From NCBI GenBank assembly GCA_019119365.1, contig DWXD01000045.1:1-62181 (forward strand): a stretch of 62,181 nucleotides of DNA, written 5' to 3'. The notes beneath the pieces are model-generated. The model searched no databases, had not been told where the DNA came from, and saw only the letters and a program-made list of their open reading frames with translations. Positions 5,809 through 20,715 of this stretch are shown piece by piece. Position numbers and translations under genes: made by a program. This DNA comes from Candidatus Gemmiger stercoripullorum (GTDB taxonomy: Bacteria; Bacillota; Clostridia; Oscillospirales; Ruminococcaceae). Within the stretch, counting starts at the first letter, position 1. Each line of letters begins with the position of its first letter.

Positions 5809-5863
5809 AAACGCGGCGCAAGCGCTGCGGCTTTCCCGGTTTGCCGGTTGTTTGCCGTGTTCC

Positions 5864-5937
5864 GTAGGGGCGGATTCCATATCCGCCCGCGGGCCTTGCA
5901 CCGCCGCGGACCGGGCCGATATGGAATCGGCCCCTAC
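5864..5937. repeat. pair of facing REP-like hairpins (BIME-like)
   Basis: First copy 5864-5889: GTAG foot followed by an 8-bp stem GGGCGGAT / ATCCGCCC with loop TCCAT. Second copy 5912-5937 is in the opposite orientation and reads, on the minus strand, GTAG then GGGCCGAT / ATCGGCCC. One base pair of the stem is inverted in both arms at once, so pairing is kept. The same unit recurs at 20117-20142, 20311-20336 and 20443-20468. This head-to-head pair starts the 407-base gene-free stretch 5809-6215. Confidence 0.8.
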
Positions 5938-20094: not shown

Positions 20095-20116
20095 TCTGTC
20101 TGCAACATTGAAATTT

Positions 20117-20142
20117 GTAGGGGCGGATTCTATATCCGCCCG
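20117..20142. repeat. REP-like hairpin upstream of the RAYT gene
   Basis: GTAG foot and stem GGGCGGAT / ATCCGCCC with loop TCTAT, 27 bases before the transposase start. Identical over its length to the copy inside the transposase gene at 20311-20336. Confidence 0.8.
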
Positions 20143-20169
20143 CATCGGCTGCATGTGCTGGAAGGGTAA

Positions 20170-20715
20170 ATGGATTACACCAGAACGGACCCCCAAAACT
20201 TGGAACGCCCCAGCCGCAGGCCAAATCGCCTGCCCGGTTATGATTACTCACAAAACGGGGCGTATTTCGTGACGATATGTACAAAAGGCAGACGAATGCT
20301 GTTTGGGGATGTAGGGGCGGATTCTATATCCGCCCGCGTTGTGGCGCAAACTTTTTCCGAGGTGATTGCCGCGGCTCCACATTATACCTGCCCCTGCTTT
20401 GTGGTTATGCCGAATCATTTCCACGCCCTGTTGGTGATAGACCGGGCCGATATGGAATCGGCCCCTACAATTTCCGATTTGATGAGGGATTTCAAACGAT
20501 ATTCTACGCTGGAATATGGTAAACTTGTCCGGCAGGGGGCGGCGGAACCCTATCAGGGCCGGCTGTGGCAACGCTCTTTCCATGACCACATCATCCGCAA
20601 CGACCGCGAGTACCGTCTGATCGGTGAATATATCATAACCAACCCGGCCCGCTGGCGGGAGGATTGCTTCTATCCTTCCGTACTGCGGCCCGTGCAGGAA
20701 GGACGAACGCTATGA
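20170..20715 (+). CDS. REP-associated tyrosine transposase (RAYT, IS200/IS605 TnpA-like)
   Basis: A 181-residue Y1 single-strand transposase. RRPNRLPGYDYSQNGAYFVT at 16-35, then the HUH motif in FVVMPNHFHALLV (His83, His85), LWQRSFHDHIIRN at 132-144, and the tyrosine-bearing helix YRLIGEYIITNPARW (catalytic Tyr likely 154) define the family, which cuts and joins DNA at GTAG-footed REP hairpins. Residues 48-56 (VGADSISAR) and 92-100 (RADMESAPT) are encoded exactly by REP hairpins. Local G+C (about 42% in 20461-20520) is far below the flanking glycosyltransferases. The stop overlaps the ATG of the next gene. All catalytic residues are present, so it may be active despite the insertions. Confidence 0.88.
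   Translation: MDYTRTDPQNLERPSRRPNRLPGYDYSQNGAYFVTICTKGRRMLFGDVGADSISARVVAQTFSEVIAAAPHYTCPCFVVMPNHFHALLVIDRADMESAPTISDLMRDFKRYSTLEYGKLVRQGAAEPYQGRLWQRSFHDHIIRNDREYRLIGEYIITNPARWREDCFYPSVLRPVQEGRTL
20311..20336. repeat. REP-like hairpin inside the RAYT reading frame (forward copy)
   Basis: GTAG foot, stem GGGCGGAT / ATCCGCCC, loop TCTAT; encodes residues 48-56 of the transposase in frame. Confidence 0.85.
20443..20468. repeat. REP-like hairpin inside the RAYT reading frame (reverse copy)
   Basis: Opposite orientation: on the minus strand GTAG foot, stem GGGCCGAT / ATCGGCCC, loop TCCAT. Encodes residues 92-100. Matches the reverse-orientation copy at 5912-5937. Confidence 0.85.

Follow-up and report, generated by a model that had tools for sequence, protein, structure and literature searches.

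Many RAYT genes of gut Clostridia carry an inverted pair of REP hairpins around their HUH codons

Introduction

Two inverted REPs are reported to flank every canonical RAYT (PMC2817692). In the corresponding REPtrons, one forward and one inverted REP are found on either side of the catalytic motif, located outside the ORF or overlapping its ends (PMC2817692, Nunvar 2010; PMC3733652, Di Nocera 2013). REPs inside such genes have also been published, i.e. the kind is known. Quentin et al. 2018 describe a predominance of in-frame REP insertions within tnpAREP genes as unique to subclass 2.4, to which RAYT group 4 of Bertels 2017 was assigned, and place these REPs generally between HuH and Y, in addition to the flanking REPs, within a peripheral region where they may affect activity little (PMC6006769). 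In-frame palindromic repeats inside proteins are further represented by intragenic REPs and the Rickettsia palindromic elements (PMC3733652).

The RAYT gene reported here resembles subclass 2.4 in having in-frame REPs within the gene, in the canonical REPs with three basal G-C pairs and in that no C-terminal core extension is described (PMC6006769), a likeness by description. However, the REPs of subclass 2.4 generally lie between HuH and Y, which corresponds to loop 2 here, whereas in the present gene one REP precedes and one follows HuH. Unlike subclass 2.4 as described in the text of that paper, the internal pair mostly replaces the flanking pair and changes in a paired, often concerted manner. 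Subclass 2.4 is abundant in Cyanobacteria and Bacteroidetes, whereas the genes studied here are from Clostridia; the subclass is also reported to have 8 inserted residues where helix B ends, which could not be placed against loop 1 (PMC6006769). In comparison to the canonical REPtron, the REPs reside within the ORF and the outer pair is mostly missing. Intragenic REPs and elements of the Rickettsia type occur in unrelated genes, whereas here the repeats occupy two recurrent loops of a gene whose product presumably processes them. We found no description of a split pair around HuH, of paired change, of a match of the hairpins within a gene or of missing flanking REPs in PMC6006769 (text without supplementary figures), in the available parts of PMC3733652, PMC2817692, PMC8266576 and PMC8049555, or in a wider search covering few subscription papers. 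As far as this literature reaches, the published account does not extend to a split pair, to its paired evolution or to an absence of flanking REPs.

Results

The window RAYT gene contains a forward and a reverse REP hairpin

The window, i.e. the whole stretch of 62,181 nucleotides that was analysed, contains the following features.

20170..20715, + strand: RAYT ORF of 181 aa, identified by profile match; its stop overlaps the likely next start, an ATG at 20712
20407..20424, + strand: codons of the HUH motif (MPNHFH, residues 80-85; alignment A2), between the two internal REPs
20629..20646, + strand: codons of Y154-IIT-N158-P159, the catalytic "Y---NP" signature of class 2 as described in PMC6006769
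20310..20336, + strand: forward REP hairpin within the ORF (loop 1, subtype R), encoding VGADSISAR (residues 48-56)
20443..20469, - strand: reverse REP hairpin within the ORF (loop 2, subtype C), encoding RADMESAPT (residues 92-100)
20116..20142, + strand: forward REP of subtype R located upstream, 27 bases ahead of the RAYT ATG
5863-5937 of the window: genomic REP dimer (R forward at 5863-5889, C reverse at 5913-5937), of the dimer type present in the RAYT gene

In a profile search, the ORF matched the NCBIfam model of the REP-associated tyrosine transposase (NF047646) with 82.9 bits, the cut-off being 80. Residues M80, P81, H83 and H85 as well as Y154 and N158 are invariant among the 59 sequences of alignment A2 and P159 is nearly invariant, and the protein has the Y1 fold as in 4er8. 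Based on the HUH and Y---NP motifs, the profile and the fold, we assign the ORF to the RAYTs (TnpAREP), class 2 TnpAY1, with cleavage of cognate REP ssDNA as the predicted activity. A structure model places both hairpin-coded stretches in or against the loops that bracket the HUH strand.

The first-pass annotation had claimed a forward and a reverse REP hairpin inside the RAYT gene, encoding the two peptides listed above and bracketing MPNHFH, as well as a third copy 27 bases before the ATG. Indeed, all of these are present, the internal hairpins at 20310-20336 and 20443-20469. An element linked to the enzyme thus resides in the enzyme's own gene on either side of the HUH codons with the frame kept open, and corresponds to the genome's REP dimer; that the enzyme would recognise it is suggested by analogy. 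The bases 20116-20143 and 20310-20337 are identical copies of 28 bases, with an inverted relative at 20443-20469. Allowing up to 3 mismatches, the REP element occurs 4 times in the window (mean of 0.00 over 100 shuffles). Each of the three units at the RAYT locus comprises an 8-bp stem and a 5-base loop beside a GTAG foot and folds as ssDNA with -9.7 kcal/mol, which was reached by 0 of 200 shuffles. Outside of the ORF there is a forward REP upstream only, the reverse REP being located inside.

The same two loops carry REP hairpins in relatives

A one-off insertion in this genome was ruled out by its second RAYT gene, L002, which carries a forward and a reverse hairpin with a different stem in the same two loops, and by relatives with the same arrangement. 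To describe the latter, we classed 178 genes comprising the two genes of this genome, genus relatives, the best 80 of 482 matches and a class sample. Genes were dropped when they had no anchor motif, too little flanking sequence or were identical to another, and at least two genes of genome G027 (L042, L269) are counted twice. The class sample consists of 79 near full-length loci chosen from the class listing, which together with the two genes of the window's genome yielded 76 classed genes. A phylum-wide family search mostly returned a longer, distinct RAYT-like subfamily, and these loci (L150 up to L179) were left out of the counts. Counts of codon use, palindromes, permutations, the tree and local cognates derive from an earlier set of 104 ORFs.

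With at most one mismatch allowed per hairpin, internal REP hairpins were detected in one or both loops of 149 of the 178 genes and in 69 of the 76 genes of the class-wide sample. A forward hairpin in loop 1 combined with a reverse one in loop 2 is present in 101 genes (98 with one in each loop; 3 with a forward hairpin in loop 1 and both orientations in loop 2). The remaining genes have a reverse hairpin in loop 2 only (32), both orientations in loop 2 (11, where the two calls may reflect one palindrome scored on both strands), a forward hairpin in loop 1 only (4) or in loop 2 only (1), or no internal REP (29). In sum over all classes, loop 1 carries a forward hairpin in 105 genes and a reverse one in none, and loop 2 carries a reverse hairpin in 144. 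Hairpins are absent from the HUH segment (0/178) and were detected later in the ORF in 2/178. Other ORFs of at least 250 aa at the RAYT loci of the best 80 of 482 matches contain 0.18 such hairpins per kb.

Our preferred explanation, to which we give slightly more than even credence, is that the inverted REP pair normally flanking a RAYT has moved inside the gene, where it co-evolves and is kept by selection. It builds on the architecture just described and on the nucleotide-level constraint, the paired change, the resemblance of the two hairpins and the scarcity of the flanking pair documented below. The chief rival, which is near the published view and which we consider rather unlikely, holds that REPs repeatedly insert near their own RAYT gene and are passively tolerated: insertions into structural parts would be purged, survivors would remain in two flexible loops, and arrivals from the genomic pool or conversion would keep them perfect-looking. 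The position of both sites in or against loops of the structure model is consistent with tolerance, as is the published judgement that such insertions are peripheral (PMC6006769), which together with the 29 genes lacking an internal REP counts against selection. At one locus, L060, loop 1 has expanded into a 120-base repeat of three forward and two reverse REPs that leaves the frame open, which also agrees with tolerance.

The two loops differ in their histories. Loop-2 REPs occur in three frames (110, 28 and 6) and over a wider spread of positions, which is what repeated insertion would give and which argues for tolerance and against selection. Tolerance can further draw on relatives from other phyla with forward and reverse hairpins or a full palindrome in loop 2. 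This class comprises 10 of the 104 ORFs, five of which possess one full palindrome scored on both strands, and eight of the ten fall in a second clade (32 rows, mostly other phyla) that additionally includes 8 genes with a reverse hairpin only, 9 with none and 4 with a split pair. In contrast, the loop-1 REP is in one frame in 104 of 105 genes and starts 17-18 residues past the Y of YFxT in 72 of 100, which fits a single inherited site and, together with the 105:0 orientation, speaks against passive tolerance. Of note, this ratio does not represent 105 independent trials, and one inherited site explains the orientation as well as selection does. A quick tree of 102 proteins showed the forward/reverse state scattered, with at least 9 changes on starred branches, indicating that it was often lost or regained, a point against the preferred explanation.

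Loop-1 and loop-2 hairpins of one gene are alike, and their stems change mostly by paired substitutions

The 101 genes with both hairpins represent 43 arm types. The arm distance between loop 1 and loop 2 was 0.40 of 8 bases within a gene and 3.38 between genes. For 48 genes of the earlier set, a value as low was obtained in 0 of 10000 permutations, and a partner taken from the nearest related gene differed by 1.35. Comparison of 34 disjoint pairs of relatives revealed 48 stem positions with two-sided Watson-Crick changes, 7 with one-sided changes kept by G-U, 2 with other two-sided changes and 520 unchanged positions; pairing was lost at 1 position, a count that is trimmed because at most one mismatch was allowed per hairpin, which leaves single losses visible and heavy decay not. 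Changed positions were alike in both loops in 20 cases and restricted to one loop in 18.

The hairpins were also compared with the codons shared by identical residues. At 75-90% core identity (12 pairs) the hairpins of loops 1 and 2 were 0.95 and 0.94 identical, respectively, versus 0.64 shared codons; at 65-75% (55 overlapping pairs) the values were 0.84 and 0.88 versus 0.55, and at 55-65% (452 pairs) 0.70 and 0.68 versus 0.52. The latter drop shows that the hairpins are not frozen. The pair has retained its ability to fold through these sequence changes and therefore gives the impression of a maintained component of the gene, not of debris. Passive tolerance is at odds with the single paired changes between relatives, which leave the remainder of the hairpin intact. 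The alternative raised in the first-pass annotation, a scar of insertion of the element into its own source, is weakened by the presence of the arrangement in 101 of 178 genes and by the one frame of loop 1 (104/105), and further by the shared loop-1 position (72/100) and the paired stem changes.

Gene L002 lies between hisC-like and hisH-like genes (positions 441-2721 of the locus). At this site, two nearly alike relatives (L058, L059) possess syntenic RAYT copies and a third (L061) retains a remnant with the middle missing. Compared with L002, the loop-1 hairpin of L058/L059 has one stem pair (A-T for C-G) and one loop base exchanged; their loop-2 REP is apparently interrupted by an insertion. 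The REP subtypes of the syntenic gene appear swapped between loops 1 and 2 when L058/L059 are compared with L002.

As a separate observation, in each of the two loops 10 of 48 genes show an A-G or G-T mismatch at stem position 7, reminiscent of the conserved bulge of E. coli REPs.

A flanking REP pair is scarce where an internal pair exists

Among genes with full flanks, a flanking pair of forward and reverse REPs was present in 2 of 94 genes with an internal pair versus 12 of 27 without internal REP (p = 1e-7). The class sample alone gave 1 of 48 versus 2 of 6 (p = 0.03). Owing to this scarcity, the internal pair seems to substitute for the flanking pair, a relationship that simple insertion under passive tolerance does not predict. 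Genes with only a reverse hairpin in loop 2 have a forward REP upstream in 13 of 28 cases and a reverse REP downstream in 1 of 28. When REPs inside and outside of the ORF are considered jointly, a forward REP precedes and a reverse REP follows the HUH codons in 124 of 161 genes; the opposite arrangement is (also) present in 16 of 161.

The internal pair matches a genomic REP dimer

The genome of the window yielded 166 matches to the REP pattern with up to one mismatch (control pattern: 70). They include two subtypes, R and C, which are one flipped stem pair apart; among the 100 matches listed, 54 belong to R and 42 to C, a few of these 96 differing by one base. For the dimer analysis, 96 of these 100 rows and 72 of 77 rows of a second genome, G005, were used, the excluded ones being other sequences or overlapping palindromes. 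Outside of the RAYT gene, the listed matches form 11 convergent pairs within 60 bases, every one an R/C dimer with 49-54 bases from start to start; random pairing reached 11/11 in 5 of 20000 trials. The pair in the gene likewise combines R forward with C reverse and in this regard resembles the BIMEs and REPINs, which are convergent pairs of two REP subtypes, but its members are 133 bases apart and separated by a coding spacer. In G005, the RAYT gene L044 carries the dimer type that is most frequent among the convergent pairs of that genome (10 of 21), and 19 of 21 pairs are heterotypic, weakly above random pairing (564/20000). Hence, in the two genomes checked pair by pair, the two hairpins of the gene match a common genomic REP dimer.

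Mobilisation of the segment from the forward REP through the HUH codons to the reverse REP as a unit was also considered. The spacer had no second copy among the listed matches of the window's genome (120 matches; 40 of 98 candidate stretches scored), the other matches covering the REP parts of the query only, and the pair was therefore apparently not mobilised as one unit.

Cognate REPs outside the gene were found within flanks of up to 10 kb at 3 of 33 loci, i.e. local clustering is weak. The pattern GTAGGGGC...GCCC gave 2 to 242 matches in 18 carrier genomes, figures that are no cognate counts since several REP types share it. The large REP numbers in many carrier genomes are in accordance with passive tolerance, and conversion from such an existing pool could refresh the hairpins without selection on the gene. 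One REP type is present in 7-50 exact copies in the five genus genomes with a RAYT of that type and in 10-44 copies in four genomes (G003, G013, G019, G034) in which no RAYT carrying it was found. Its equal abundance in the latter indicates that the link between RAYT and REP is not exclusive. This, the weak local clustering, the spacer without a second listed copy and the nearly random pairing in G005 weigh against the preferred explanation. Passive tolerance is less compatible with REP types confined to the gene. In G027 (99% complete), the REP type of gene L062 occurs solely at the RAYT itself among exact matches to one pattern; in G461 and G467 the type of the RAYT is seemingly present only as one pair at gene-like spacing, the G461 pair being assigned by this spacing. 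Such matching may overlook near variants, and recent gene transfer could also explain these three cases.

Constraint acts on the nucleotides, and neither a conserved long-range RNA stem nor a required peptide is supported

Autoregulation at the RNA level is an improbable explanation. The RAYT protein or the translation or decay machinery would meet the hairpins in the RAYT's own mRNA and limit RAYT production, which may coexist with an internal REP pair kept by selection. The hairpins are located in translated mRNA and remain even where further copies are few or were not found, as would suit a local role; moreover, the RNA folds better than 95 of 100 shuffles, and in the minimum-energy fold the arms pair across the HUH segment. 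However, the GTAG feet and the REP subtypes matching genomic DNA repeats point to recognition of DNA. In addition, cross-pairing between the loops is broken at 1-2 of 8 positions in the 32 genes with differing arms, while both local hairpins are free of mismatches in 14 of these genes and carry one mismatch each, the detection limit, in 12. Long-range pairing of the two REPs is therefore not supported as the conserved structure by these genes. We know of no RNA binding by RAYTs.

Shuffling of synonymous codons within genes left the loop-1 hairpin in 13 of 890 trials and the loop-2 hairpin in 18 of 890, compared to 105 and 144 of the 178 genes observed, respectively. In the 104-ORF set, GTA is the valine codon of the loop-1 Val-Gly in 56 of 68 genes, compared with 21% of valines in the remainder of these genes, and GGG the glycine codon in 57 of 68 (26% elsewhere), while the loop-2 Pro-Thr is encoded by CCTAC in 59 of 70 (CCT: 17% of prolines elsewhere). 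A protein-level reason, in which the enzyme needs the loop peptides and the palindromic coding DNA is incidental, has in its favor the recurrent "VG" at the start of loop 1 and "PT" at the end of loop 2, but it is very improbable and was rejected on codon use and synonymous shuffling, as the codons are forced to GTA-GGG and CCTAC, the hairpins vanish upon shuffling and the peptides vary among genes. The possibility foreseen in the first-pass annotation, that homologues keep these residues for protein reasons, fails on the same grounds.

Discussion

In the reading preferred here, the forward REP of the loop preceding the HUH strand and the reverse REP of the loop following it represent the pair that normally flanks a RAYT, moved inside the gene, where selection would keep them. 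They are foldable, GTAG-footed hairpins of one REP family and change by paired substitutions that are often alike in both loops. By analogy with TnpA-REP of E. coli, we infer that the RAYT recognises its own internal hairpins as single-stranded DNA. The RAYT gene would then be its own cognate site. Selection would keep the hairpins because an enzyme encoded in this way is never separated from its substrate and could found or replenish a REP population. Regulation via the same hairpins, which the first-pass annotation had raised as self-limitation by substrate hairpins in the mRNA or ssDNA, is a possible second use.

A more far-reaching and tentative proposal is that Clostridial RAYT genes are self-addressed units, in which the catalytic segment is bracketed by co-evolving recognition hairpins. 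This pair would tie specificity to the gene, exert a cis effect on the gene or its mRNA and be the master copy that founds the genomic REP dimers. Were this true, diverging in-gene hairpins would be the birthplace of new REP families. These genes bear on how RAYTs and REPs remain matched and on the origin of new REP families: enzyme and presumed substrate are contained in one sequence, providing about 100 natural pairs (43 arm types in 101 genes) for reading and testing specificity. Independently of this, the genes represent a clear case of paired hairpin evolution inside coding sequence.

A tandem of REPs was also observed outside of a reading frame: at locus L051, 12 forward REPs spaced about 31 bases apart (1977-2343) are located immediately 3' of the RAYT gene.
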